A DNA stretch of 64,000 nucleotides from Robiginitomaculum sp. (lineage in GTDB: Bacteria; Pseudomonadota; Alphaproteobacteria; Caulobacterales; Maricaulaceae), in NCBI GenBank assembly GCA_021776565.1, contig JAJFFQ010000024.1, positions 1-64,000 of the forward strand, written 5' to 3'. Under the pieces are notes generated by a model, which had not been told where the DNA came from, ran no database searches, and saw nothing but the letters and a program-made list of their open reading frames with translations. Positions within the stretch are counted from its first letter, which is position 1. Every line of letters starts with the position of its first letter. The position numbers and the translations under genes were made by a program. This document shows positions 19,901-58,131 of this stretch, in pieces.

Positions 19901-21076
19901 ATGGGTTTTGCTTATCAAACGGGTCGCCGGTATGATCTGGACTGGTTGCGTATCATCGCTTTTGGAATTTTGATTTTCTACCATATCGGCATGTATTACG
20001 TGACCTGGGGATGGCACATCAAAAGCCCCTATGCTGGCCCCTGGCTGGAGCCTTTTATGCGCCTGGTCAATCCGTGGCGTCTGTCTTTGTTGTTTTTTAT
20101 ATCGGGTCTGGCGGCCCGTTTCATGCTGGACAAGGTTTCACGTGAAACCTTTGCCAAAGAGCGTCTATGGCGTTTATTTATCCCGTTATTCATTGGCATG
20201 CAGTTCATTGTTGCACCGCAAACATATTATCAATTCTTGCACGCGGGCATCATAGAGCCGGGGTTCTGGGCATTTTTTGGAAACTACGCCAACCCTGATT
20301 TTGCCTTTCCTGGCACAACCACACCAACCTGGAACCATTTATGGTATGTGACCTACCTTCTGGTCTATTCATTCCTGCTGGTTGGTCTTGCCCCGTGGTT
20401 AAAGATGCTGTCTGACGGCCCGATTGGGCGGTTTGTGACAAAGCTGCCCGCCTGGGTTCTAACGTTAATGTTACCGGTAATACCGCTTCTTATCGTCCGC
20501 TTTACCCTGACGCCACATTGGCCAACCACCCATAATCTTGTTTCTGACTGGGCCAATCATGCCACCAGCTTTTTTATATTTTTGCTCGGCTATCAAATTG
20601 CCAAATCACAAAACTTTTGGCTGGCTATCGATAAAGTGCGGCTTTGGTCTTTGGGTTTTTCTCTGGCGCTTATTATCCCGCTTTCTTTTTTATGGGTGCC
20701 GTGGGACGGGTTTGTGGATTGGGTTGGACAAGACCCGAAAAGAGCGATTTTGCTGTTTGCCGCACGCGCTGGGCGTGTTTTATACGCATGGTTTGCCATC
20801 GCCACGCTTTTGGGTTTTGCGCAACGGGTTTTGAACAAGCCAAACAAGGCATTATCCTATTTAACTTCGATGGTTTTTCCTTATTACATTTTGCACCAAA
20901 CCCTGATAATCGTTATTGCCTACCCATTAAGCAAAATGGCGCTTGGTCTACCCTTGGAAGCCGCTGGCGTGATTTTTGGTACCGTTGCTGGATGTGTTTT
21001 AATCAGTGAACTTCTTATCAAGCGGGTTGCCCTTCTAAGGGTATTCTTTGGTATGAAAGCCAGGCCAAAACCTTAA
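19901..21076 (+). CDS. Acyltransferase family 3 / OpgC-like membrane protein
   Basis: A 391-residue integral membrane acyltransferase with about ten hydrophobic segments. The N-terminal RRYDLDWLRIIAFGILIFYH has the catalytic His of the acyltransferase-3 fold. It resembles the glucan succinyl-transfer protein OpgC/MdoC group. Its likely role is O-acylation of a periplasmic or surface glycan. The start is ATG 19901 with AGGGG upstream; GTG 19886 is an alternative. A parS-like palindrome lies inside the gene at 20132-20151. The 204-bp gap to the LytTR gene shows no other gene. Confidence 0.82.
   Translation: MGFAYQTGRRYDLDWLRIIAFGILIFYHIGMYYVTWGWHIKSPYAGPWLEPFMRLVNPWRLSLLFFISGLAARFMLDKVSRETFAKERLWRLFIPLFIGMQFIVAPQTYYQFLHAGIIEPGFWAFFGNYANPDFAFPGTTTPTWNHLWYVTYLLVYSFLLVGLAPWLKMLSDGPIGRFVTKLPAWVLTLMLPVIPLLIVRFTLTPHWPTTHNLVSDWANHATSFFIFLLGYQIAKSQNFWLAIDKVRLWSLGFSLALIIPLSFLWVPWDGFVDWVGQDPKRAILLFAARAGRVLYAWFAIATLLGFAQRVLNKPNKALSYLTSMVFPYYILHQTLIIVIAYPLSKMALGLPLEAAGVIFGTVAGCVLISELLIKRVALLRVFFGMKARPKP
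20132..20151. other. Degenerate parS-like palindrome
   Basis: AAGGTTTCACGTGAAACCTT is a perfect 20-bp palindrome containing the inner 14 bp of parS (GTTTCACGTGAAAC); only the outermost T/A of the 16-bp consensus differ. It lies in the coding sequence of the acyltransferase, about 37 kb from the predicted origin. Confidence 0.6.
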
Positions 21077-32405: not shown

Positions 32406-32481
32406 CAATCATCTTCTCACACTCCACCTTGAAGCCACGCTGGCCCTTCGCCATCTTCAGGGGTATAGGACATAGCCTGAT

Positions 32482-32490
32482 TGGTATAAT
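32482..32490 (+). promoter_or_regulatory. Extended -10 promoter of nfuA
   Basis: TGGTATAAT is an exact extended -10 element 27 nt before the nfuA start. No good -35 is seen at 16-18 nt, as is usual for extended -10 promoters. The leader would be about 20 nt. Confidence 0.5.
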
Positions 32491-32516
32491 TGCGCACAAG
32501 GACAAGTGAGAGAAAA

Positions 32517-33080
32517 ATGTTTATTGAAACCCAGTCCACGCCAAACCCGGCAACACTGAAATTCCTGCCCGGGCGAGAGGTGTCACCCTCCGGGGTGCAT
32601 GATTATCGCGATGTCGAGGCGGCCAAGACGTCGCCCCTGGCACAAACGCTTTTTGCCCAGGGCGGCGTTCGTGGCGTATTTTTAGGTTCCGATTTCATTG
32701 CCATCACCAAAGAGGAAGATCAGGAATGGCCCCATCTGAAACCGGCATTACTTGGGGCCATCATGGATCATTTCCAGTCTGGCGCACCGGTGTTGACCGG
32801 CGAGGGGACGGGTGCAGACGAAGAAGAATATGAAGGCGAAACCGCCGAAATTGTTGCCCAGATCAAGGAGCTGATCGACACCCGCGTTCGCCCCGCCGTG
32901 GCCCGTGATGGTGGCGACATTGTTTTTCAGCGTTTTGACGTAGACACAGGTCTGGTTTATTTACATATGCGCGGCGCGTGTGCTGGTTGCCCGTCTTCAT
33001 CAATGACGCTGAAACACGGCATTGAGAACTTGCTGAAACATTATGTGCCTGAGGTCAGTGCCGTCGAACAGGCTTTTTAG
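32517..33080 (+). CDS. Iron-sulfur carrier protein, Nfu family
   Basis: A 187-residue Nfu-type Fe-S carrier. The N-terminal Nfu domain (IETQSTPNPATLKFLPG) is followed by an acidic linker. The C-terminal NifU-like domain has the cluster-binding CxxC in RGACAGCPSSSMTLKHGIE. It hands clusters to apo-enzymes. The start is ATG 32517; a longer frame begins at 32490 inside the promoter. It precedes a nitroreductase-type gene by 14 bp. Confidence 0.92.
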   Translation: MFIETQSTPNPATLKFLPGREVSPSGVHDYRDVEAAKTSPLAQTLFAQGGVRGVFLGSDFIAITKEEDQEWPHLKPALLGAIMDHFQSGAPVLTGEGTGADEEEYEGETAEIVAQIKELIDTRVRPAVARDGGDIVFQRFDVDTGLVYLHMRGACAGCPSSSMTLKHGIENLLKHYVPEVSAVEQAF

Positions 33081-33094
33081 AGGAAGAAAATTCT

Positions 33095-33697
33095 ATGGCC
33101 AACCCCCTTGCCGATCTCACCTTTGACCAGCTCTTTCGCAAAGCGCGCACCGCCAATGCCTGGCAGGATCTGGATGTGCCAGAGGTCATGGTGCGAGCCA
33201 TTTATGACCTGATGAAATGGGGGGCCACCAGCGCCAATATAAGCCCGGCACGGTTTTTATGGATACATTCTGATGCCGCCAGGGCACGACTGAAACCACA
33301 TCTGATGGAAGGCAATGTTCCCAAGGTGCTTGGCGCACCGTGGACGGTTATTATTGCCTGGGATGAAAAATTTGAAGACAAGGTGCCTGAACTATTCCCC
33401 CATAACCCCGGAGCCAGGGACTGGTTTACCGATCCTGATGCCCATTTTGACGCCGCTTTTCGCAACGGCACCCTGCAAGGCGCGTATCTGATGTTGGCAG
33501 CGCGCGCCCTGGGGCTGGATTGCGGGCCAATGTCAGGCTTTGACAACAAGGCGGTGGATGCCGAATTTTTTGCGGGCGATGTAAAAATGAAACACTGGGC
33601 GTCAAACTTCATCTGTGCCATTGGTTATGGTGATGATGCGGCTTTGTTTGACCGCTCGCCGCGTCTTGCTTTTGATGACGCCAACACCACCCTCTGA
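33095..33697 (+). CDS. Nitroreductase-family protein, RutE/HadB-like
   Basis: A 200-residue FMN-dependent reductase of the malonic-semialdehyde reductase (RutE) group: WGATSANISPARFLWI (~42-57) binds FMN, and GTLQGAYLMLAARALGLDCGPMSGFD is the family core. In E. coli RutE acts in pyrimidine breakdown. No other rut gene is nearby, so a general 3-oxo acid or quinone reductase role is equally possible. It lies between nfuA and tsaB on the same strand. Confidence 0.85.
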   Translation: MANPLADLTFDQLFRKARTANAWQDLDVPEVMVRAIYDLMKWGATSANISPARFLWIHSDAARARLKPHLMEGNVPKVLGAPWTVIIAWDEKFEDKVPELFPHNPGARDWFTDPDAHFDAAFRNGTLQGAYLMLAARALGLDCGPMSGFDNKAVDAEFFAGDVKMKHWASNFICAIGYGDDAALFDRSPRLAFDDANTTL

Positions 33698-33706
33698 GGT
33701 GCCTCA

Positions 33707-34363
33707 ATGGCACTCTTGCTGATTGATACCAGCACTGCCCGTTGCGCAGTCCTTGTGCGCACAGGCGGGGCCAGTCTCCAGAGGATTGAAACAGGTGTGC
33801 GTGGACAGGATGCCCGCCTGGCCCCCATGGTTCATGACATACTTGACGAGGCCGGGCTTGTCCCGACTGATATTGAACGCATTGGCGTCATTATCGGCCC
33901 CGGTGCGTTTACCGGTGTACGCATTGGTGTTGCCTTTGCACGAGGGTTGGGGCTGACCCTTGGTAAACCCGTGACAGGCATAAACGCGCTGGACGTTTTT
34001 GCACTTGGAGGTGATGCTGGTGAGTATCGAGCCGGAGTGTGCGATGTTGGTCGTGGTGAGATCGTGTTTCGTCTGGCCAGAAGCGGTGTGTTGCAAGGCA
34101 AGTATGAAATTGTTTCGGTGGACGATGCCGTATTACAGATAACCGCCTTTGGGGCAGGTCATCCGGTTCATCTGGCCGGGTCTGCTGCACACCAGATCAG
34201 CAATGATGTTTTGTGCGATACGGGTCAACATGATCTGGATTTAGAGCGCGTTGCCACCCTCCTGCACGCCAGCGCACTACCGGTACTGGACGCTCTTCCC
34301 TGGTATCATCGCCCGCCGGACGCCAAATTACCTGCCAAATTATCAGGCAGCGCCATCCCGTGA
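33707..34363 (+). CDS. tsaB: tRNA threonylcarbamoyladenosine biosynthesis protein TsaB
   Basis: A 218-residue partner of TsaD in making the t6A37 modification of ANN-decoding tRNAs. The N-terminal LLIDTSTARCAV and the GVIIGPGAFTGVRIGVAFARGL region are typical of this pseudo-ASKHA protein. It overlaps rimI (GTGA), the usual alphaproteobacterial arrangement tsaB-rimI-fur-miaB. Confidence 0.93.
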   Translation: MALLLIDTSTARCAVLVRTGGASLQRIETGVRGQDARLAPMVHDILDEAGLVPTDIERIGVIIGPGAFTGVRIGVAFARGLGLTLGKPVTGINALDVFALGGDAGEYRAGVCDVGRGEIVFRLARSGVLQGKYEIVSVDDAVLQITAFGAGHPVHLAGSAAHQISNDVLCDTGQHDLDLERVATLLHASALPVLDALPWYHRPPDAKLPAKLSGSAIP

Positions 34364-34800
34364 GCACAGTGCGGATTATCAAGGCAGAGATGAGCCATGC
34401 CGCCATGCTGGCACAATTACACAAGGCTTCTTTCAATCCTGCATGGGATGAGGACGCCATTATCTCACTATTGACGAGCAGTACAATGGCCTGGCTTGGC
34501 TATATCGACGATCAACCATCGGGATTTGTTATCATCCGCATAGCTGCAGATGAGGCAGAGATATTGAGCATTGCTGTTTTGCCGGACGCGCGCCAGCACG
34601 GGTTGGGGCGCACGCTTTTGACAACCGCATTTGAGGGCGCTGTTCAAAGCGGTGCTATATCCATGTTTTTGGAAGTGGCTCGCAGCAATGAACCTGCGTG
34701 CCAGCTTTATGAAAGTGTCGGCTTTGCGCATATCGGCGTTCGCGAGCGTTATTACTCCAATGATGAAGACGCGCTTGTTTTTAGGCGTTCACTGGTGTGA
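34360..34800 (+). CDS. rimI: Ribosomal protein alanine N-acetyltransferase (RimI)
   Basis: A 146-residue GNAT acetyltransferase. It has AEILSIAVLPDARQHGLGRTLL (the acetyl-CoA-binding Q/R-x-x-G-x-G/A loop) and the C-terminal VARSNEPACQLYESVGF motif of RimI. It acetylates the N-terminal Ala of ribosomal protein bS18. The GTG start overlaps the tsaB stop. Confidence 0.9.
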   Translation: MSTVRIIKAEMSHAAMLAQLHKASFNPAWDEDAIISLLTSSTMAWLGYIDDQPSGFVIIRIAADEAEILSIAVLPDARQHGLGRTLLTTAFEGAVQSGAISMFLEVARSNEPACQLYESVGFAHIGVRERYYSNDEDALVFRRSLV

Positions 34801-34864
34801 TGTTTGGGTGCGCGGGGATGGACAAAAGCAGCTTTTGACACCAGTAAAGAAGGGTTAGCCATTT

Positions 34865-35287
34865 ATGGGAGACTTCGTGCCTAATCGTCTGGAAGAACAG
34901 TGTGTGCAAAAAGGCATGCGCATGACCGAACAACGCCGGATCATAGCGCGTGTTCTTAGTCAGGCCGAAGACCACCCGAATGCCGAAGAACTGTATGCCC
35001 GCGCCCTGGCGCTGGATCCCAACATGTCTCTGGCAACGGTCTATCGCACCGTGCGTCTTTTTGAAGATGCCGGCATTATTACCCGTCATGATTTTGGCGA
35101 TGGCCGGGCACGGTTTGAAGAACTTCCCGACAGCCATCATGACCATCTGATTGATGTAAAGACCGGCGAGGTTATCGAGTTCGTAGATGAAGAAATTGAA
35201 AAACTACAGGAAAAAATTGCCAAAAAACTCGGCTACAAGCTGGTAGATCATCGCCTTGAGCTTTACGGAATAAGGGACAAGTCCTGA
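34865..35287 (+). CDS. Fur-family metal-responsive regulator (Fur/Mur type)
   Basis: A 140-residue Fur-fold repressor. The winged helix runs over ~15-80 (MRMTEQRRIIARVLSQ; SLATVYRTVRLFEDAG) and the dimerisation/metal domain contains SHHDHLIDVKTGEVIEF. The CxxC that normally follows HHDHLI is replaced by VKT, so no structural zinc site of that kind is present. This is common in alphaproteobacterial Fur/Mur. Manganese (Mur) versus iron sensing cannot be decided here. It lies between rimI and miaB. Confidence 0.87.
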   Translation: MGDFVPNRLEEQCVQKGMRMTEQRRIIARVLSQAEDHPNAEELYARALALDPNMSLATVYRTVRLFEDAGIITRHDFGDGRARFEELPDSHHDHLIDVKTGEVIEFVDEEIEKLQEKIAKKLGYKLVDHRLELYGIRDKS

Positions 35288-35290
35288 CCA

Positions 35291-36643
35291 ATGTCTGGCT
35301 CTAAAAAACGCGTCTATATCAAAACTTTTGGCTGTCAGATGAATGTTTATGATTCTGCACAAATGGCCAACCTGTTGCACGGGGTGGGTTATGATGAAGT
35401 AACCACCGCCGAAGACGCCGATCTGGTGGTGCTTAACACCTGCCATATTCGCGAAAAGGCCGCAGAGAAAGTTTATTCTGATCTTGGCCGACTGCGCCAG
35501 ATCAAAGAAGCGCGCGGCGACCATGAAGCCCCTATGCAAATCGCCGTCGCCGGGTGTGTTGCCCAGGCCGAAGGGGCCGAGATCAAACGTCGTGCGCCGG
35601 TGGTGGACTATGTGGTTGGCCCACAAAGCTACCAACGTTTACCACAAATGCTTGCTGGAGAAGCAGAAACGCTAGCCACGGACTTTGCCGTTGACGAGAA
35701 ATTTGAACGTCTGGCCCAAAAACGCAGTCAGCAAGGGCCAGCCGCTTTTGTAACCGTGCAGGAAGGTTGCGACAAGTTTTGCTCATTCTGTGTGGTACCC
35801 TATACACGTGGTGCAGAACATTCGCGCAGCGCCGGGCAGATCAGTGCCGAAGTGCGCGCTTTGGCACGTCACGGGGTGCGCGAGGTCACACTGCTTGGTC
35901 AAAACGTCAACGCCTGGGCCGCGACAAGCCCAAACGGGAAAGGCGGCTGGGGGTTGGGTCAACTGATCCGCCATCTGGCACAAATCGACGGGTTGGATCG
36001 TATTCGCTACACCACCTCACATCCACGCGACATGGATGATAATTTGATTGCTGCTCATGGTGAAATTGACGTGCTCATGCCCTATTTGCATCTACCGGTG
36101 CAATCGGGATCCAATCGAGTGCTTAAGGCGATGAACCGTGGCCATAGCATGGATGACTATAAGCGTATTATTGATAAAATTCGCCGTAAACGCCCGGATA
36201 TCGCTCTGTCTGGCGATTTTATTGTCGGGTTTCCAGGCGAAACCAATGCGGACTTTGAGGCAACCATGCAAGCTGTGCGCGATATTGGTTATGCTTCTGC
36301 ATATTCGTTCAAATACTCGCGCCGCCCCGGCACGCCGGGGGCAAAGATAAAAGATCAAGTACCCGAAGAGATTAAAGTGGAGCGTCTGGCAATTTTACAA
36401 GATTTGCTGGTCACCCAGCAGATCGGTTTTAATGCCGGCCTTACGGGGCGCACCTTACCGGTTTTGTTTGAAAAACCGGGGCGGCACGAGGGGCAGGTTT
36501 GCGGGCGCAGTCCTTATCTGCAAAGTGTTTTTGTGCAAGGCCCGACATCATTGATCGGCAGCATTCAAGATGTGGACATCACCGGGGCTGGCCGCAATGC
36601 ACTCACCGGAAATTTATCTCGGGAGGTCGTGACAACAGCGTGA
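35291..36643 (+). CDS. miaB: tRNA-2-methylthio-N6-dimethylallyladenosine synthase
   Basis: A 450-residue radical-SAM methylthiotransferase acting on i6A37 of tRNA. The N-terminal UPF0004 domain has cysteines for the auxiliary 4Fe-4S cluster (TFGCQMN, NTCHIRE, VAGCVAQ). The radical-SAM CxxxCxxC is in [18 protein letters not shown]-terminal TRAM domain follows. It is 3 bp after fur and overlaps phoH (GTGA). Confidence 0.96.
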
Positions 36644-37593
36644 GCAAAACCATGCGTATAGTCCTTGAAACTCCCGCTCTTGCTGCTGATGTTTGCGGCG
36701 TAAATAGTGAAAACCTCGTGCTTGTTGAACAGGCCTTTGATGTGCTCATCGATGCGCCAGGTGACGGGTTTGCTGTGCATGGCCCATCAACGGGGCAACG
36801 CAAGGCCATTGATGTTCTGAAAACCCTTGTTGTTGAGGCACAGGCGGGCAAAAGCCCTGATGCGGCCAGCGTGCGTGCCGCTATTATTTTTGCTAAAAAG
36901 GGAGATGGTTTTAACGCCAAAGACGGTTTTCACGTACCCCGCGCCCGGCGTCTTATCAGCCCGCGAACGCCGGCACAAAAAACCTATTTGAACCTACTAA
37001 AGGGTGCTGATGCTGATCTTGTGTTTGGTGTTGGCCCGGCCGGTACGGGGAAAACATTTCTGGCAGTGTGTTACGGCGCAACGTTGCTGGCGGCCCGTAA
37101 AATTGACAAGTTAATTATTGCCCGCCCGGCCGTTGAGGCTGGTGAGCGCCTGGGATTTCTTCCCGGTGCTCTGGAAGAAAAAATTGACCCTTATATGCTC
37201 CCTGTCTGGGATGCACTTGATGTTGCCCTAGGGCAGGAAATGGTGCTGAAACGCCGTGCTGAAGGACGCATAGAGGTCGCGCCCCTTGCCTTTATGCGCG
37301 GGCGCACACTCAGCCACGCATTTGTTATAATGGACGAAGCCCAAAATGCCACAACCGGCCAGATGCAAATGGTCTTGACCCGCCTTGGTGAGGGTAGCCG
37401 GATGGTGGTAACCGGTGATCCCAGTCAATCGGATTTACCAAACGGGCAGCTTTCCGGTCTGTCTCACGCGCTGGGCGTGCTGGACGGTGTGAGGGGCTGT
37501 GCTGTTTCACGATTTACACAAAAAGATGTGGTGCGACACCCATTGGTGGCGCGTATTGTTGCCGCTTATGAAAACGCAGGGCGACCAGGTTGA
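36640..37593 (+). CDS. PhoH-family ATPase (PhoH-like)
   Basis: A 317-residue PhoH-like protein. Walker A is [11 protein letters not shown] (~128-138) and Walker B is FVIMDEAQN. It is usually found with ybeY and implicated in RNA/ribosome metabolism. The start GTG 36640 overlaps the miaB stop; ATG 36652 is the alternative. It overlaps ybeY (TGATG). Confidence 0.9.
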
Positions 37594-38090
37594 TGGACAA
37601 CGAAGAACGTGAAATTGACGTGCGTATTTCTGGCAAAAACTGGAACCCGGATGTTGAAAAAGCTGAAATGCTGGTGCGCGACGTTTTGGATGCCCTTGAA
37701 GCAAGACTTGGCCCGCTGCACGCCGGTGTTTTGGAGGTTTGGTTTGCCACTGACAATGACTTACAGGCATTGAATCATACGTTTCGTAGTAAAAACATGC
37801 CAACCAATGTACTTTCTTTTTCCCCTCCGACCGACCTACAATCTGGTTTTGGTCAGTGTTTGGGTCAGCTGGCACTTGCCGATGGGGTTTGCGTCCAAGA
37901 GGCCAACGCGCGCAGTGTGACGCTCGAGGATCATGCTTGTCATCTTGTCCTACATGGACTGTTGCACCTGGAGGGTTATGACCATGAAACCGATGCTGAT
38001 GCTAAAACAATGGAAACAATAGAGTGCGCCGTTATGAAGGCGCTTGATTTGCATGACCCATACTCGGTCAGAGGAGAGGCGCATGTCTGA
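37593..38090 (+). CDS. ybeY: Endoribonuclease YbeY
   Basis: A 165-residue metal-dependent RNase in 16S rRNA maturation and ribosome quality control. The zinc motif HGLLHLEGYDHETD (HGxxHLxGYDH) is complete, and SKNMPTNVLSFSPP is the second family signature. The ATG overlaps the phoH stop, and the 3' end overlaps corC by 8 bp. Confidence 0.95.
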   Translation: MDNEEREIDVRISGKNWNPDVEKAEMLVRDVLDALEARLGPLHAGVLEVWFATDNDLQALNHTFRSKNMPTNVLSFSPPTDLQSGFGQCLGQLALADGVCVQEANARSVTLEDHACHLVLHGLLHLEGYDHETDADAKTMETIECAVMKALDLHDPYSVRGEAHV

Positions 38091-38889
38091 ACAAAATATC
38101 GGGTTTTTCGCAAAGCTGTTTTCAAGACAGTCTGCTGTCCCTTCTGTGCCTGACGAAGACGCGCAAGAACTAATTGATAATGCTACGGCGTTTGATCTGG
38201 TGCGTATCGACGATCTAATGGTGCCGCGCGCTGATATTGTTGCGGTAAACTCTGATGTCAGTCTTGGTGAACTGGCCCGTGCGTTTATTCAATCGTCACA
38301 TTCGCGTCTCCCGGTTTATCACGACACGCTCGACGATCCGCGCGGCATGGTTCACATCAAGGATGTTTTGCGGTTTCTCGTCCCAGAAAATGGCACACCT
38401 GCAGATACCGGGGCAAAAGTTCTCGAACAAATTATTCGACCCGTTCTTTTTACACCGCCCAGCATGTATGCTGATGATCTGATGTTAAAAATGCAAAGCA
38501 CCCACATTCATATGGCGCTGGTCGTGGATGAATATGGCGGCACAGATGGTCTGGCGACCCTTGAAGATATTGTTGAACAAATCGTTGGCAAAATAGAAGA
38601 CGAGCACGACGGTGAGGCCCCATCACTAACCAGGCTGGAGGATGGTAAATGGGATGCCGATGCCCGCGTTTCCATTGAAGAGCTTGAAGAAGCAAGCGGC
38701 ATCGCCCTTGTTCGGGGCGAAGATGAAGATGACGTAGATACGCTGGGAGGGCTGGTGTTTCAACTGGCTGGGCGAGTTCCCCAACGTGGTGAAATTCTAA
38801 AACACCCTGCAGGTCTTGAGTTTGAAGTTATGGAAGCTGATCCGCGCCGCCTGCGCCGCCTTCTGGTTCGCCATCACCATGAGGGATAA
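38083..38889 (+). CDS. CBS-domain transporter-associated protein (CorC/YbeX family)
   Basis: A 268-residue cytoplasmic protein with two CBS domains (~43-170; IDDLMVPRADIVAV, MALVVDEYGGTDGLATLEDIVEQIVG) and a C-terminal CorC_HlyC domain (DTLGGLVFQLAGRVPQRGE). YbeX/CorC proteins are linked to magnesium efflux and ribosome maturation. It lies in the phoH-ybeY-corC-lnt order, overlapping both neighbours. Confidence 0.9.
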   Translation: MSEQNIGFFAKLFSRQSAVPSVPDEDAQELIDNATAFDLVRIDDLMVPRADIVAVNSDVSLGELARAFIQSSHSRLPVYHDTLDDPRGMVHIKDVLRFLVPENGTPADTGAKVLEQIIRPVLFTPPSMYADDLMLKMQSTHIHMALVVDEYGGTDGLATLEDIVEQIVGKIEDEHDGEAPSLTRLEDGKWDADARVSIEELEEASGIALVRGEDEDDVDTLGGLVFQLAGRVPQRGEILKHPAGLEFEVMEADPRRLRRLLVRHHHEG

Positions 38890-40477
38890 TATCGTCATCA
38901 TTATATGGCAGAAAATTACAGCTCTGCACGCCTACACTTCTGGCGTGCGTGGCTGGCGTGCGCACCTTATGGCGTTTGTTGCCGGTGCCGCGGGCGTATT
39001 GGGGCAAGCACCATTTCATCTGTGGCCAATGGCCTTGCTTTCTATGGTGGTTCTTGTCTGGCTTCTGGATGGAGCTTTTTCCGGGCCGGAACCCATCCGC
39101 GCCGGCGCCGCACGGGCATTCAGTTTTGCTTATGGGCAATTTTTCGCCGGGCTTTACTGGATCGGCTCCGCCTTCATAAGCCGAGGCCCGGAATATATTC
39201 CGCTTATGCCCTTTGCCTTAGCTTTACTTATGGCTGGTCTGGCGCTCATCTGGGCCGTGGCCGGCGCCATAGCCGTGCGGTTCTGGTGTCTGGATCAGCG
39301 CCGTATCGCCGTATTTGCTCTGACTTTTTTCGGTGCCGAGTGGGTCAGGGGGCATTTTCTCACCGGATTTCCATGGAACTTGCCGGGCATGGTATGGAAC
39401 CCCGGTGGCACCATATCTCAATCGGCATCTGTTTTTGGTATATGGGGCTTGTCGCTTGTTACGCTTTTTGTGTTTGCAGCTCCGGCTGCTTTAATGGGCA
39501 GGGCGCGCACGTTCTGGTGGCGAGCCTTACCAACCATCATGGGTCTTGGGTTGTTTACCGTTGCGTTTGTCTACGGCGTGAACCGGTTGTCTAATGCTGG
39601 CACAGGAGAACAACCCGGCGTGCGGTTGCGGGTGGTTCAATCAAACATCGATCAGCGCGAAAAATGGAACCCTGAAAACCGGGAAGCCGTATTGGAGCAT
39701 TATTTACGCATATCGACCGCCTTGCCCCTGGACAAGGTCAGCCACGTTATCTGGCCTGAAGGCGCATTACCAACCTTGCTTCTGGAAGACAGCCATGCGC
39801 TGGATCGTATTGCTGAAACGTTTCGGGACGGGCCGGTGCTTATTACCGGCCTGACAAGGCGAGAGCGCGCCGGTAATGGTGAAACGCTGTATCGTAATTC
39901 TCTTATTGCCCTTAGTTTTGCTGATGGGTTACCTCGGGTAGAGACGGTTTACGACAAGCACCACCTTGTGCCTTTTGGTGAATACATGCCTTTTGCGGAT
40001 GTGGTTGCCCGGTTGGGGGTCGAGAGCCTTGCTGTTCTTGGTGATGGTTACACACCCGGGCCAGCGCCCTCCAGCATGCAAATTGCCGATCTGCCGGTTT
40101 TCTCACCGCAAATTTGTTATGAAATCGCCTATTCCGGCTTTACTCCCAGAGATGAGGGACGGCCAGACTGGATTCTCAACATTTCCAATGATTCCTGGTT
40201 TGGCTCAACCACCGGCCCCTATCAACACCTCGACCATTCGCGGTTTCGCGCTATAGAAGAAGGGCTACCCGTGGTTCGTTCCGTCAGCTCAGGGATTGCC
40301 GGTGTTATTGACCCCTTTGGTCGGATGCGCGTTCGTCTTGACCGCAAGGCTGACCGGGCCGTTGATACAGCTATCCCCTTGCCGCTGGCTGCCCCCATTA
40401 ACAAGCGCTTTGGCGGGTTGTTCGTTTTATTCTTGGTGGGGGTGTTATTCTTGTTTAGGTTTTTACACGCTCGATAA
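38879..40477 (+). CDS. lnt: Apolipoprotein N-acyltransferase
   Basis: A 532-residue inner-membrane enzyme adding the third acyl chain to lipoproteins. About seven membrane segments precede a nitrilase-type domain. The catalytic triad is visible as Glu in IWPEGALP, Lys in VYDKHHLVPFGEY and Cys in SPQICYE. The ATG at 38879 overlaps the corC stop by 11 bp. The open frame to 38816 lies wholly within corC. Confidence 0.94.
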   Translation: MRDNIVIIIWQKITALHAYTSGVRGWRAHLMAFVAGAAGVLGQAPFHLWPMALLSMVVLVWLLDGAFSGPEPIRAGAARAFSFAYGQFFAGLYWIGSAFISRGPEYIPLMPFALALLMAGLALIWAVAGAIAVRFWCLDQRRIAVFALTFFGAEWVRGHFLTGFPWNLPGMVWNPGGTISQSASVFGIWGLSLVTLFVFAAPAALMGRARTFWWRALPTIMGLGLFTVAFVYGVNRLSNAGTGEQPGVRLRVVQSNIDQREKWNPENREAVLEHYLRISTALPLDKVSHVIWPEGALPTLLLEDSHALDRIAETFRDGPVLITGLTRRERAGNGETLYRNSLIALSFADGLPRVETVYDKHHLVPFGEYMPFADVVARLGVESLAVLGDGYTPGPAPSSMQIADLPVFSPQICYEIAYSGFTPRDEGRPDWILNISNDSWFGSTTGPYQHLDHSRFRAIEEGLPVVRSVSSGIAGVIDPFGRMRVRLDRKADRAVDTAIPLPLAAPINKRFGGLFVLFLVGVLFLFRFLHAR

Positions 40478-40638
40478 ACCATGTCTTGTTAAACACTCGG
40501 GCCAACACGCTTACGTAGAAAAAATTATTGCAACAACCTGTGCGGGAATTTGGTTGAACGCGTTTACAGAAAGACCTATTGGAGCATATCAACCACTCCT
40601 GATTAAACTCAAGGGGTGGTTAACGATCGGGGTGTTTT

Positions 40639-41049
40639 GTGACAGAACGTTCAGCCAATCCAGTTGATATCCACGTGGGTGCGCGGGTGCGCTTGCGCCG
40701 CCTTATGCTGCGTATGAGCCAGGACAAGCTTGGTGAAACCCTTGGTGTCACCTTTCAGCAAATTCAAAAATATGAACGCGGGGCCAACCGTGTTAGTGCC
40801 AGCCGCTTATGGGGTATGGCTGATGTTCTTAATGTACCAATTCAGTATTTTTTTGAAGGCCTGGCCGAACAAGCCTTAACGGGCGGGTTTTCTGATAATG
40901 ACCAAACGCCAATGGTTTATGACTTTATAAACTCACCTGACGGCGTACAACTTGCTGCTGCTTTTTCACGCATTACTGACGCCAAGGTTCGTCGCCAGGT
41001 ACTGCAGCTGGTTCGTGCCCTTTCTGGCGAAACCGAGGCAGAAAGCTGA
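40639..41049 (+). CDS. XRE-family transcriptional regulator
   Basis: A 136-residue protein. The Cro/CI helix-turn-helix is at ~12-70 (GARVRLRRLMLRMSQDKLGETLGVTFQQIQ in two parts: MSQDKLGETLGVT and QQIQKYERGANRVS). A helical C-terminal part follows. This small regulator type follows lnt in many alphaproteobacteria, normally followed by metK, which is absent here. GTG start with GGGG about 8 nt upstream. The 160-bp gap before it has no gene. Confidence 0.88.
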   Translation: MTERSANPVDIHVGARVRLRRLMLRMSQDKLGETLGVTFQQIQKYERGANRVSASRLWGMADVLNVPIQYFFEGLAEQALTGGFSDNDQTPMVYDFINSPDGVQLAAAFSRITDAKVRRQVLQLVRALSGETEAES

Positions 41050-41076
41050 CCTGCTAGATCGTTTTATTATATCAGA

Positions 41077-46563: not shown

Positions 46564-47439
46564 CTATTCTTGTGTAAGGCGGCGACACAAATCATCAAGC
46601 TGCTCAAGGGTTCTGTAATTGACCTGTAGTTGACCCGCTCCATTGGCGCGGGTTTTTATGGTTACTGCCAGCCCCAGGCACCGGGTTAAATCGCCCTCTA
46701 ATGACAGTGTGTCCGGGCTTTTCTCTTTTGAGGGTTTGGTTTTTCTTCCTTTGGTTTCCAATGCGGTTTGTTTTGCTAAACTTTCTGTTTGACGAACGTT
46801 CAGGCCTTTTTTTATGATCTGGGCCGCTAAGTCTTCGGGGTCTGTGGCGGTGATTATCGCTCGTCCGTGACCAGCGCTAAGCAAGCCCTCACTAATCTGC
46901 TCTTGAATTGATGCCGGTAAGTTCAAAAGCCGTATCGCATTTGCAATTGCCGCACGGCTTTTGCCGATCACCCGTGCGATATCTTCCTGGGTATTATTGA
47001 ATTGTTCTGATAAAACCAGAAGGCCTCGCGCTTCTTCTATGGGGTCAAGGTCGGTGCGTTGCATGTTTTCTACAAGCGCAATTTCCATAACCTCACGATC
47101 CGACAAGTCGCGCACAATAACCGGGATTTCATGTAGACGGGCGCGTTGTGCAGCCCGCCAACGGCGCTCCCCCGCCACGATTTGGTAGCCATCGCCACCC
47201 GGAATTGGCCGCACAATAATTGGTTGTAGCACCCCCTTTTCTGCTATTGAGCGCGTTAAACCCTCCATCTCTGCCTCGTCAAAATGGCGGCGTGGCTGCT
47301 CAGAGTTACGGCTAATCGTCTCAATGGGAACAACCGCGCCCCCATCAACGTTCGGGGCTGATAACACAGGGGATTCAGTTTCTCCCAAAAGCGCGGATAA
47401 ACCACGCCCCAACCTTTGTCCTTTTGGCGTGTCACTCAT
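46564..47439 (-). CDS. parB: Chromosome-partitioning protein ParB
   Basis: A 291-residue ParB/Spo0J CTPase clamp. The N-terminal RLGRGLSALLGE, the CTP-binding GERRWRAAQRA and ENMQRTDLDPIEEA boxes, a helix-turn-helix (NTQEDIARVIGKSRAAIANAI in two parts) and a C-terminal dimerisation domain are visible. It loads on parS; two exact parS sites lie 1.4 and 3.4 kb upstream. It overlaps parA (ATGA). Confidence 0.95.
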   Translation of the reverse strand: MSDTPKGQRLGRGLSALLGETESPVLSAPNVDGGAVVPIETISRNSEQPRRHFDEAEMEGLTRSIAEKGVLQPIIVRPIPGGDGYQIVAGERRWRAAQRARLHEIPVIVRDLSDREVMEIALVENMQRTDLDPIEEARGLLVLSEQFNNTQEDIARVIGKSRAAIANAIRLLNLPASIQEQISEGLLSAGHGRAIITATDPEDLAAQIIKKGLNVRQTESLAKQTALETKGRKTKPSKEKSPDTLSLEGDLTRCLGLAVTIKTRANGAGQLQVNYRTLEQLDDLCRRLTQE

Positions 47440-48239
47440 AATGCCCTCACCTTGTCTTCACGGCGGATAACCTCGCTTGCCAGGCGCATATAGGCCTTGC
47501 TACCCGCACATTTGTAATCGTAGATCAACGCAGGCTTACCATAGGATGGCGCTTCTGAAACACGCACATTGCGCGGAATCACGGTTTTATAAACCTTATC
47601 ACCAAAGTGTGCGCGTACATCGTCTGAAACCTGTTTTGATAAATTGTTTCGAGGATCATACATGGTAAGAACCAGGCCCTGGATTTCCAGTTGCGGGTTA
47701 AGGTTGCCTCGAACCAGATCCACCGTGCGCAAAAGCTGACTAAGCCCCTCCAATGCAAAAAACTCACATTGTAATGGCACCAAAAGTGCGTCTGCCGCCG
47801 TTAAGGCATTGACAGTCACCACGTTCAATGACGGTGGACAGTCAATCAAAACATACTGGTACTCGCTGTTTTTTCTTAAGGTTTGCAGGGCGTCCTTTAA
47901 TCGGTGTGAGCGCCGGGGCGCGTTGGCAAGCTCCAGCTCTGCCCCGGCCAGATCTGCCTCGGCGGGCGCAATGTGCAGTCCCGGAACAGCTGTATGAACG
48001 ATTGCTTTTTCTATGGACACTTGACGCACCAGCACGTCATAGGTTGTCGTGTGTCTCATAGCGTGGTCTATACCAAGGCCTGTAGAGGCGTTACCTTGCG
48101 GATCAATATCCAAAATCAGGGTTTTTTTACCAATGGCACACAGCGCCGTTGCCAGGTTTATTGTCGTGGTGGTTTTACCAACGCCGCCCTTTTGGTTGGC
48201 AATAGCAATAATCCGCGTGTTTATTGGCGATTCAGACAC
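47436..48239 (-). CDS. parA: Chromosome-partitioning ATPase ParA
   Basis: A 267-residue Walker-type ATPase. The deviant Walker A KGGVGKTT is at 17-24, and Walker A' ILDIDPQGNASTGLG and IDCPPSLNVVTVNAL follow. It drives ParB-parS segregation. GTG start with GGGAAG upstream, overlapping the rsmG stop by 8 bp. Operon mnmG-rsmG-parA-parB. Confidence 0.95.
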   Translation of the reverse strand: MSESPINTRIIAIANQKGGVGKTTTTINLATALCAIGKKTLILDIDPQGNASTGLGIDHAMRHTTTYDVLVRQVSIEKAIVHTAVPGLHIAPAEADLAGAELELANAPRRSHRLKDALQTLRKNSEYQYVLIDCPPSLNVVTVNALTAADALLVPLQCEFFALEGLSQLLRTVDLVRGNLNPQLEIQGLVLTMYDPRNNLSKQVSDDVRAHFGDKVYKTVIPRNVRVSEAPSYGKPALIYDYKCAGSKAYMRLASEVIRREDKVRAL

Positions 48240-48861
48240 GGTCAGCTTCCCATATTTTCAAAATTGTTGCGTTTTTGTCTGTCAGACTTGGTATAGATTG
48301 ATAGCGCAGAGTCCAGCCGCGTTGTGCTTCGTCTATCTCTTTTATTACACCAGCCCCCTTTGAAAACAACCGCAGTGTTTTTGGCCCTGCAAACGGTGCC
48401 GATAGCGTCAACAGTTTGTATAGTGGGGCCAGAGCGCGCGCGGTTATTACGTCATACGGTTTCGGCGGCATTTTTTCCATGCGATCACAAACCACCTCTG
48501 CCTTTGCGCCTGTTTTTTGAATGCACGTGCGTAAAAAGGCTGCCTTTTTTGCATTAGACTCAACCATGACCATGGTTAAGTTTGTGTCCTCCATGCGCAT
48601 CAAGGCTATTGCCAGCCCCGGGAACCCCGCACCAGAACCCAAGTCTATCCAGTTTTTTGCCGTGTTTGGTGCCATTTTGGCCAGCTGGGCGCTATCCAGT
48701 GCGTGGCGTAGCCAAAAGCCCTGCACGGTGTTGGGTGAAACCAGGTTTATCTTCTTGGACCATTTTTGCAACAAGTCGTGCCAAATATCAAACCGGGTCA
48801 GTGTTTCACGTGAAACATCTAGTGTTTTGGCAAACAACTGGCGGTCGTTTTGCGTATTCAT
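48232..48861 (-). CDS. rsmG: 16S rRNA (guanine527-N7)-methyltransferase
   Basis: A 209-residue methyltransferase (GidB). The SAM motif is [16 protein letters not shown], followed by [13 protein letters not shown] and [14 protein letters not shown]. The start overlaps the mnmG stop (ATGA). A consensus parS is embedded in codons for the early segment VSRETL. Confidence 0.94.
48802..48817. other. parS centromere site (exact 16-bp consensus)
   Basis: TGTTTCACGTGAAACA, identical to the consensus parS bound by ParB, within the rsmG coding sequence. It lies about 1.4 kb from parB and 8.3 kb from the predicted origin. Confidence 0.95.
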
Positions 48862-50811: not shown

Positions 50812-50835
50812 GCATTGTTTCACGTGAAACAATGC
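50812..50835. other. parS site within a 24-bp perfect palindrome
   Basis: The exact 16-bp parS lies at 50816-50831. The symmetry extends four more bases on each side (GCAT...ATGC). It is intergenic, between mnmG and mnmE, and 6 kb from the predicted origin. Confidence 0.95.
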
Positions 50836-54936: not shown

Positions 54937-55904
54937 CCCCGACCTTCTTTCATGGCCCTCACGGCAAGATTTCCAAGACAAGCAATATAGTTTGGTTCAA
55001 CCCCCAAGGCCGGCACGCGTAAATACGTTTTTATCCCAAATTCTTTTGCCTTTTGTTTATAGTCTATATCCAGCTCTACCAAGGTTTCTATATGTTCAGA
55101 TACAAAGGCTATCGGCACGAGCAAGACGATTTTTCCGTCATTACCTGCCTTTTGCAGCGCCTCTAGCGTGGATGGCCCTATCCATTTTAATGGCCCAACC
55201 TTGCTTTGATACGCAATATCAATGTTATTTAGGCCTTTGGGTAGTTTTTTGGCGATTGCTGCACAACTTTTTTCTATGTGTTTCTGGTATGGATCACCAG
55301 CATTTATGGTTTTTTCCGGCAACCCGTGCGCAGACATAATAATGCGGGTGTTTTTTGGTGAGCCATGCTTTTTGTAAAAGGCGGTAATTTTGTTCACATG
55401 GGCTTGAATAAAGTTTTTGTCATCGGCGTATTCAAGAATACTTACTTCACAAGGAATGTCTTTGCTTGTTTTCATCCATTCTTTGATAAAGCTTCCTGTC
55501 GTTGTGGTTGAAAATTGCGGGTATAAAGGCAGGAGGATAATTTTTGTGGCACCCCAGGCTTTTATGTTTTTTTGCACGGCCTGAATTTCTGGAGACCAGT
55601 ATCGCATGGCAACAAAGCACTTGATATTTTCGTTTGGCAGTGCGTTGTGAAGATAATTTTGCACAGCCTCTGACTGTTTCTTGCTTTCTTTGAGGATTGG
55701 CGATTTTCCGCCCATATGAGCGTAATTTAATCTGGATGTTTTTTCCCTGCGGCGGCTGATAAGTTCTGCCAATAAACATCTTAAGGGGTTGGGAAGGTTG
55801 ATGATCGCCTTATCAGCAAATAAATTGCGTAAAAATGGCCGAACGCTTTCAAGACGGTCTGGGCCGCCAAGATTAAATAAAACAATGGCGGTTTTCTCTT
55901 TCAC
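54933..55904 (-). CDS. hemH: Ferrochelatase
   Basis: A 323-residue enzyme inserting iron into protoporphyrin IX. Motifs are VLFNLGGPD at the start, IMSAHGLPEKTINAGDPY with the catalytic His, and VPIAFVSEHIETLVELDIDY with the second His and Glu. It overlaps hemE (ATGA) and hemJ. Lysine-rich and A/T-richer codon use than genes farther from the origin region is apparent by eye. Confidence 0.95.
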   Translation of the reverse strand: MKEKTAIVLFNLGGPDRLESVRPFLRNLFADKAIINLPNPLRCLLAELISRRREKTSRLNYAHMGGKSPILKESKKQSEAVQNYLHNALPNENIKCFVAMRYWSPEIQAVQKNIKAWGATKIILLPLYPQFSTTTTGSFIKEWMKTSKDIPCEVSILEYADDKNFIQAHVNKITAFYKKHGSPKNTRIIMSAHGLPEKTINAGDPYQKHIEKSCAAIAKKLPKGLNNIDIAYQSKVGPLKWIGPSTLEALQKAGNDGKIVLLVPIAFVSEHIETLVELDIDYKQKAKEFGIKTYLRVPALGVEPNYIACLGNLAVRAMKEGRG

Positions 55905-56938
55905 CTGGTTTCTTTCACCAATTGTACCAAACGTTCAACATGCTCTATCGGTGTGTCCGGTGTAATTCCATGACCAAGGTTGAAAATATGTGCTCTCCCA
56001 GAAAAGTTTTTTTTCACCCGGTCGACCTCACTTTGTAGTGCCGCGCCACCAACACGTAAAACGGCCGGATCCAGATTGCCCTGAAGCACTGTTTCTTTAG
56101 GTAGGTTTTGACTAAACCAAACGCCGTCCTGTGCCTGATCCAGCGCCAGTGCCGTGATCCCTGTTTCATTGGCATATCTCACAGCCAGCCCCCCACAACC
56201 ACGGGGAAACCCGATGATTGGCAGATAAACACCACGCTCTCTTAGACCAGCGACGATGTTTTTTGCCGGGCGGATAATAAACCGCTCAAAAAATGGCTCT
56301 GGTAGCCCCTCTGCCCATGATTCAAACAACTTTAGAACTTCTGCCCCTGCTTTTGCTTGCATGTGCAAATAATCAATGCTGGCCTCAACCAGAATATCCA
56401 GCAATCGATCAAATTCATCTGGGTTTTGCCAGGCCCACAGACGGGATCTCCATTTATCTTTTGATCCGCCTCCCTCTATCATATAGGTTGCCACCGTCCA
56501 TGGCGCGCCGGCAAAGCCAATAAGCGCAACCTTGTCCGCCAGTGCACTCTGGACACGGGCCAAGGCATCCCCAACGGCACTTAATTTATCCAGTGACCAG
56601 GCTCGCTCCATTTTTAATAACGATTGACCTGGTTTTAAGGGGCGCATTTTTGGCCCCTCACCCGCAACAAAACGTACATCGCGCTCCATGGCAAAGGGGA
56701 TCAATAAAATATCGGCAAAAATGATGGCTGCATCTAAATCAAACCGGCGAAGGGGCTGTAGCGTAGCTTCACTAGCCGTTTTTGGGTTAAGACAAAAATC
56801 CACAAAAGAAGATGATTCAGCACGTAATTTTCGGTATTCAGGTAAATAACGTCCAGCCTGTCGCATGATCCATATTGGTGGAATAGTGCTTGTTTGCCCC
56901 ATAAGGGTTTGTAAAAGGGGTTTTGAAGGAACGCCCAT
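55901..56938 (-). CDS. hemE: Uroporphyrinogen decarboxylase
   Basis: A 345-residue enzyme decarboxylating uroporphyrinogen III. Motifs are PIWIMRQAGRYLPEYR near the N-terminus, GFAGAPWTVATYMIEGGGSKD and the late GFPRGCGG. The start is ATG 56938; the in-frame ATG at 56944 is an alternative. Its 5' side faces the predicted origin, the same orientation as hemE at Caulobacter Cori. Confidence 0.95.
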   Translation of the reverse strand: MGVPSKPLLQTLMGQTSTIPPIWIMRQAGRYLPEYRKLRAESSSFVDFCLNPKTASEATLQPLRRFDLDAAIIFADILLIPFAMERDVRFVAGEGPKMRPLKPGQSLLKMERAWSLDKLSAVGDALARVQSALADKVALIGFAGAPWTVATYMIEGGGSKDKWRSRLWAWQNPDEFDRLLDILVEASIDYLHMQAKAGAEVLKLFESWAEGLPEPFFERFIIRPAKNIVAGLRERGVYLPIIGFPRGCGGLAVRYANETGITALALDQAQDGVWFSQNLPKETVLQGNLDPAVLRVGGAALQSEVDRVKKNFSGRAHIFNLGHGITPDTPIEHVERLVQLVKETR

Positions 56939-56944
56939 GACCAT

Positions 56945-57276
56945 ATCTTTCCATCATTATATTATTTAAATTTATTGTTGTTTTTACGCTGTGAACAATC
57001 AGGAAAAAACAGGTTTTTACAAGGTTTTGCAGTTTTTTGCACACGATAATAACAAAACCCCAGCAAGAAAACTGGAAAAACAACAAAAAAAACAAAATCC
57101 TACCATAAAAGGAAAAAAAACATACATATTTCACATGAAAACAATTAACAGAGAAAAAAATCATAAAACATGGGGCAAAGACCAGGTTAATCCAGTAAGG
57201 AAAAACCAATCGCGCAATAACTGCAACAAACAAAGGCTTGTTAACACTTTATTAACGATTTAGGCAGGAGCCAAAA
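56945..57276. other. Predicted chromosome replication origin (oriC)
   Basis: A 332-bp A/T-rich gap between divergent hemE and ppsR, the location of Cori in Caulobacter (hemE/RP001). It contains long A-runs on the plus strand (57076-57175). DnaA-box-like sites are TTGTTCACA (minus, 56990-56998) and TTTTGCACA (plus, 57035-57043). An exact CtrA-type site lies at 57241-57255. Genes on both sides point outward, and parAB/parS are close. dnaA itself is not in the window, as is usual in this class. Confidence 0.75.
57241..57255. promoter_or_regulatory. CtrA-type site TTAA-N7-TTAA
   Basis: TTAACACTTTATTAA matches the CtrA consensus exactly, 21 bp before the ppsR start and within the predicted origin. 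In Caulobacter, CtrA bound at such sites blocks initiation; here it might also control ppsR. Confidence 0.6.
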
Positions 57277-58131
57277 ATGAGTGATCGAGAAAGACCACAA
57301 GGATATTATGTGCACTTGCATTTGGTCTCGGATGCTACGGGCGAAACCCTGACTGGAATTATGCGGGCAGCAAGCGCACAGTTTCGATCTCTTATTCCCA
57401 TAGAGCACACGCACGTTCTAACGCGCTCAGAAAAACAGCTGGATCACGCGTTTGAGGAAATAGATGCGGCGCCCGGCATTGTTATGTATACAATGGTCAA
57501 TGAGAGCCAGCGCCAACGCCTGGTAGGGTTTTGTGAAGATCGCTCTATCCCTTGTATAGATGTTCTTGGGCCAATTTTACATACCTTAAGCCAATATCTG
57601 GGGGTACCGGTAAGCCATGAAACCGGCGCGCAACACATTCAGGACGAAGACTATCATCAACGGATCAATGCACTGAACTTTGCCATGGCACACGATGACG
57701 GCCTTTCCCCGCAAAGGATTAACCAGGCCGACGTAATATTACTGGGTGTAAGCCGAACATCCAAAACACCAACCTGTGTGTATCTTGCAAACCGTGGGAT
57801 TAAGGCAGCAAACATTCCTATTGTTGGCAAGATAGAGCCGCCAGAAACACTGACTGGATTAAAGCAAACCCCTTTGCTTGTTGGTTTGACTATAAGCCCC
57901 CGCCGCCTTGTTCAAATTCGCCGAAACCGGTTATTAAGCTTGAATGAACACCGGCCAAGCGAATATATTAGTGAGGCCGCAGTGCGCGAAGAAATTATTT
58001 TTGCCAAAAGATTGTTTGCCAGATACGGCTGGCCAACAATTGATGTTACCAGGCGCTCGATAGAAGAGACATCGGCGAAAATTATGTCTTTACTGGCCGC
58101 CCGATCAAATGAAAGCCACGCCGGACAGTGA
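57277..58131 (+). CDS. ppsR: Pyruvate, water dikinase regulatory protein (DUF299)
   Basis: A 284-residue bifunctional kinase/pyrophosphorylase controlling PEP synthase (or PPDK) by threonine phosphorylation. The N-terminal LVSDATGETL and the P-loop GVSRTSKTPTCVYLANRG (~155-172) are diagnostic. This is the RP001-type gene that flanks the origin in Caulobacter and Rickettsia. It is the first gene of a tightly overlapping operon ppsR-maf-aroE-coaE-dnaQ. Confidence 0.93.
   Translation: MSDRERPQGYYVHLHLVSDATGETLTGIMRAASAQFRSLIPIEHTHVLTRSEKQLDHAFEEIDAAPGIVMYTMVNESQRQRLVGFCEDRSIPCIDVLGPILHTLSQYLGVPVSHETGAQHIQDEDYHQRINALNFAMAHDDGLSPQRINQADVILLGVSRTSKTPTCVYLANRGIKAANIPIVGKIEPPETLTGLKQTPLLVGLTISPRRLVQIRRNRLLSLNEHRPSEYISEAAVREEIIFAKRLFARYGWPTIDVTRRSIEETSAKIMSLLAARSNESHAGQ

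Follow-up and report, generated by a model that had tools for sequence, protein, structure and literature searches.

A probable Caulobacter-type replication origin between hemE and ppsR in Robiginitomaculum sp.

We analysed a 64,000-bp stretch of Robiginitomaculum sp. DNA (hereafter the window), comprising bases 1–64000 of the 80,027-bp contig G000:C17 in a 2.9-Mb genome of 74 contigs. The results indicate that the 332-bp gap at positions 56945–57276, which is flanked by the divergent genes hemE (− strand) and ppsR (+ strand), is very probably (roughly 93%) the bidirectional replication origin of the main chromosome and orthologous to Cori of Caulobacter. An earlier note on this DNA had placed a chromosome origin between these two genes, and its proposal is now supported by a V-shaped GC skew in a member of the same genus, by DnaA boxes found in the gap genus-wide and by a conserved CtrA site. 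Because the motifs and the local skew within the window are not decisive, it is the relatives that settle the origin call. The evidence supports directly the position, the gene pair, the base composition, the conservation of motifs and the skew switch in the same genus.

The divergent gene pair and the composition of the gap

The left boundary gene, hemE, lies at 55901–56944 (− strand; TIGR01464, 374.5 bits, cut-off 303), and the right boundary gene, ppsR, at 57277–58131 (+ strand; NF003742, 319.6 bits, cut-off 225). The latter belongs to COG1806/DUF299 and is the orthologue of CC0001 and RP001, which places the gap where a Cori-type origin is sought, between divergent hemE and COG1806/ppsR. 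Outward of hemE lie hemH and hemJ, and outward of ppsR lie maf, aroE and coaE (coaE was assigned by eye from its ORF). The profile matches agree with the earlier claim that genes point outward on both sides of the gap. Further, hemE and ppsR were adjacent and divergent in all 14 genomes checked. The named relatives are metagenome assemblies labelled 'Robiginitomaculum sp.' (Maricaulales in the NCBI taxonomy), in which PpsR is 79–84% identical. One same-genus assembly (G008) carries two copies of ppsR (L016 at G008:C2:39386–40198, and G008:C20:2784–3596; 63% and 56% identity to the ppsR of the window), and neither L016 nor L017 (G013:C105) showed a hemE gene within 1.5 kb of its ppsR; the duplication and the missing hemE may reflect contamination or a split origin region.

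The gap had been described as A/T-rich, and its A+T content of 69.0%, against a mean near 49%, is above the genome average, as expected of a Cori-type origin. The gap overlaps the most A/T-rich 332-bp stretch in the 64-kb window, and in a 1.06-Mb sample of this genome just 0.2% of 332-bp windows are at least as A/T-rich. At the hemE end of the gap, the 40-mers beginning at 56943–56948 have the highest A+T content in the window (34 of 40 positions), and the stretch at 56943–56987 is a candidate unwinding element.

DnaA boxes and the CtrA site

The two DnaA-box-like 9-mers that had been noticed in the gap are present, both weak and each with one mismatch: TTGTTCACA at 56990–56998 (− strand; one mismatch to TTATNCACA) and TTTTGCACA at 57035–57043 (+ strand). 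In the nearest relative, the box-like CTATTCACA lies at the same offset as the first of these, and TTTTACACA is aligned to the second. The exact CtrA site likewise ascribed to the gap was confirmed as one perfect predicted TTAA-N7-TTAA motif, the CtrA motif of Cori-type origins, at 57241–57256 (+ strand; TTAACACTTTATTAAC; TTAACACTTTATTAA(C)), 20 bp before the start of ppsR. Dinucleotide shuffles of the gap equalled the weak-box count in 7–10% of trials, and a shuffled gap yielded a CtrA site in 7% of trials. Because shuffles equal the motifs of the gap at these rates, a single sequence proves little; the DnaA and CtrA motifs are not significant in one sequence, and we therefore drew weight from their conservation across the genus.

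In the 15 gaps from the genus, which are related, so that box counts are not independent, we found 35 matches to TTWTNCACA compared with 1.4 expected (∼25-fold; maximum of 6 in 300 shuffles) and 12 perfect TTATCCACA boxes compared with 0.08 expected. TTAA-N7-TTAA was found 16–57 bp before ppsR in 15 of 15 genus members, where it forms the sole long conserved block of the alignment. Similarly, in other genera of the family, TTAAC-N6-TTAAC (0–1 mismatch) lies 20–28 bp before ppsR in 8 of 11 gaps (L021–L026, L028 and L029). Within the 64-kb window the TTAA-N7-TTAA motif occurs only at this site, and the 16-mer TTAACACTTTATTAAC has exactly one copy in the whole genome. The genome also encodes a CtrA orthologue (79% identity, E = 2.5e-123); the query was an approximate sequence, and a match of this strength does not depend on every letter.

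At one aligned position, TTATCCACA in three genus members (L006–L008) corresponds to TTATCCATA in the nearest relative and to ACATACATA in the window, an alignment to be read with care in a poorly conserved region. Judged from these sequences, the window origin is odd in that it lacks the canonical DnaA boxes carried by sister species or has them only in decayed form. Because the canonical boxes appear to have decayed and the CtrA site has been kept in both the window species and its nearest relative, DnaA may recognise the origin via weak or unknown sites, with the single CtrA site as the dominant specific contact, although we regard this arrangement as rather unlikely.

GC skew and the segregation locus

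The earlier note had expected the GC-skew minimum at the gap rather than at dnaA, and this is what we observed in the same genus. On contig C6 of G010 (703,591 bp), cumulative GC skew is lowest at position 496,145, and the hemE/ppsR gap, which spans 494,781–495,190, ends ∼1 kb short of this point. The skew forms a single V: all 20-kb bins before the 500-kb mark are negative and all later bins positive. By a rough estimate (a span of about 2.4 kb out of 703 kb), the chance of a skew minimum so near the gap is ∼0.3%. The dnaA gene of G010 is on another contig, C4.

Origins next to dnaA are common among bacteria, and the origin could in principle adjoin dnaA here, leaving the hemE/ppsR gap as merely a divergent promoter region; the gap must indeed also house the promoters of hemE and ppsR, and its DnaA boxes are weak in the window. 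However, the skew minimum of G010 is at hemE/ppsR, and the 20-kb stretches flanking the window genome's own dnaA (contig C28) have skews of +0.004 and +0.034, with no change of sign. Only two one-mismatch boxes and no CtrA site were found within 1.5 kb upstream of this dnaA, and its 1.5-kb flanks show neither A/T enrichment nor a cluster of DnaA boxes. Together with the marker frequency of Hyphomonas neptunium, which peaks close to hemE (PMC6650430), these results make a dnaA-adjacent origin extremely unlikely.

The assignment of the origin to the hemE/ppsR gap also has to be weighed against a reading in which the conserved CtrA site controls transcription of ppsR and is unrelated to replication, the origin being elsewhere within ∼10 kb, for example in another gap of the hemE–parAB cluster. 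The CtrA site does occupy a promoter-like position before ppsR in all genus members, and the skew minimum of G010 leaves ∼1 kb of slack. However, the strong genus-wide enrichment of DnaA boxes is in exactly the hemE/ppsR gap, this gap is the most A/T-rich in the window, and promoter and origin roles are mutually compatible; we consider this reading very improbable.

Other skew measurements were less clean. The window's own 80-kb contig has a noisy skew, with a local minimum at 57,928 and the overall minimum at 76,914, and comparison with G010:C6 indicates that rearranged blocks are in part responsible for this blurring. Positions 41,074–70,137 of the window, which span the gap, are collinear with G010:C6 477.5–508 kb. 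The block at 32,478–41,032 is inverted relative to G010:C6 329–337 kb and has a mirror-image skew (+0.061 compared with −0.070), representing either a recent inversion inside the left arm or a misassembly. The block at 742–10,207 matches G010:C6 535–545 kb in the same orientation and lies to the right of the origin there and to the left here, representing either a transposition or an assembly join. Own-genome skew was measured on stretches of contigs other than C63–C74; when the genome's own contigs were ordered on G010:C6 for whole-arm skew, too few were collinear and the signs were mixed. In a complete genome of the same family (G041), sampled outside the 104 kb between the gap and dnaA (G041:3265001–3368780), the skew was positive on one side of hemE/ppsR and negative on the other, and the switch (−0.080 left, +0.019 right) fell within the 20-kb sample containing the gap. 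In a further family genome (G039), sampled at dispersed points, hemE did not coincide with a clean switch, and the sign changed only 0.13–0.27 Mb beyond it.

The proximity of parAB and parS to the gap, also part of the earlier proposal, was upheld at distances of about 6–10 kb. The parB gene (46564–47439, − strand) matches TIGR00180 parB_part (190.8 bits, cut-off 58), and parA (47436–48239, − strand) was assigned as a ParA-type ATPase by NCBIfam matches and its position adjoining parB. Motif searching identified two exact parS palindromes, TGTTTCACGTGAAACA, at 48802–48817 and 50816–50831. Thus, parAB lies 8.7–10.4 kb and the exact parS sites 6–8 kb from the gap, as in a chromosomal ParABS centromere, where parS palindromes adjoin parAB close to the origin. 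In the parS search, which allowed up to three mismatches, none of 100 shuffles gave three matches. A third parS-like palindrome, GGTTTCACGTGAAACC, with two mismatches, is found at 20134–20149, 37 kb from the gap.

Known origins and implications for the genus

Cori of Caulobacter crescentus lies between hemE (CC3763) and CC0001/COG1806 and contains five CtrA sites, five DnaA boxes and one IHF site (PMC1914354). The position of the gap is equivalent, as had been proposed (hemE/RP001), because the same divergent gene pair encloses it, over a similar length (332 bp compared with 404 bp in Caulobacter), and both regions combine an A+T content above that of the genome with a CtrA site and DnaA-type boxes, those of the window being putative (PMC1914354). 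In contrast, the gap has one CtrA site rather than five and two degenerate DnaA boxes rather than five, and contains neither GANTC nor the IHF consensus WATCAN5WTR, the latter being a criterion applied in PMC1914354 and present in 6 of the 15 genus members. Because site numbers vary among the origins accepted in PMC1914354, we took the missing IHF site as accessory and not disqualifying.

The layout of hemE, parAB, two parS sites and CtrA in the window repeats that of H. neptunium, in which parAB is ∼7 kb from the origin with two consensus parS upstream (PMC6650430) and CtrA binding adjoins the origin by CtrA ChIP (PMC7200025). The H. neptunium origin is proven by experiment, whereas that of the window is predicted from sequence; conversely, GC skew is uninformative in H. 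neptunium but forms a clean V in G010:C6. The origin of Rickettsia prowazekii, which in PMC1914354 is a prediction only, shares the boundary genes (hemE RP885 and RP001) and a gap of similar size (384 bp; PMC1914354) but belongs to a distant lineage.

By analogy with Caulobacter and Hyphomonas, the window origin would fire as follows. DnaA would bind the two weak boxes on the hemE side of the gap, the A/T-rich DNA would then melt, and two forks would run outward past hemE and ppsR. In cells that are not replicating, phosphorylated CtrA on the single perfect site beside ppsR would restrain initiation. Newly made origins would be segregated by the nearby ParABS system.

Overall, the gap is very probably a further example of the known Caulobacter-type origin; with the origin at the same spot in Caulobacter and Hyphomonas, the earlier proposal is correct but expected, and it alters no general picture. 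It does locate the origin, and hence both replication arms, in a genus for which the named relatives identified are without exception metagenome assemblies. Further, the alignment of 15 origins, across which a single CtrA site is better preserved than any other element while DnaA boxes turn over, offers useful material for work on the maintenance of the CtrA checkpoint.
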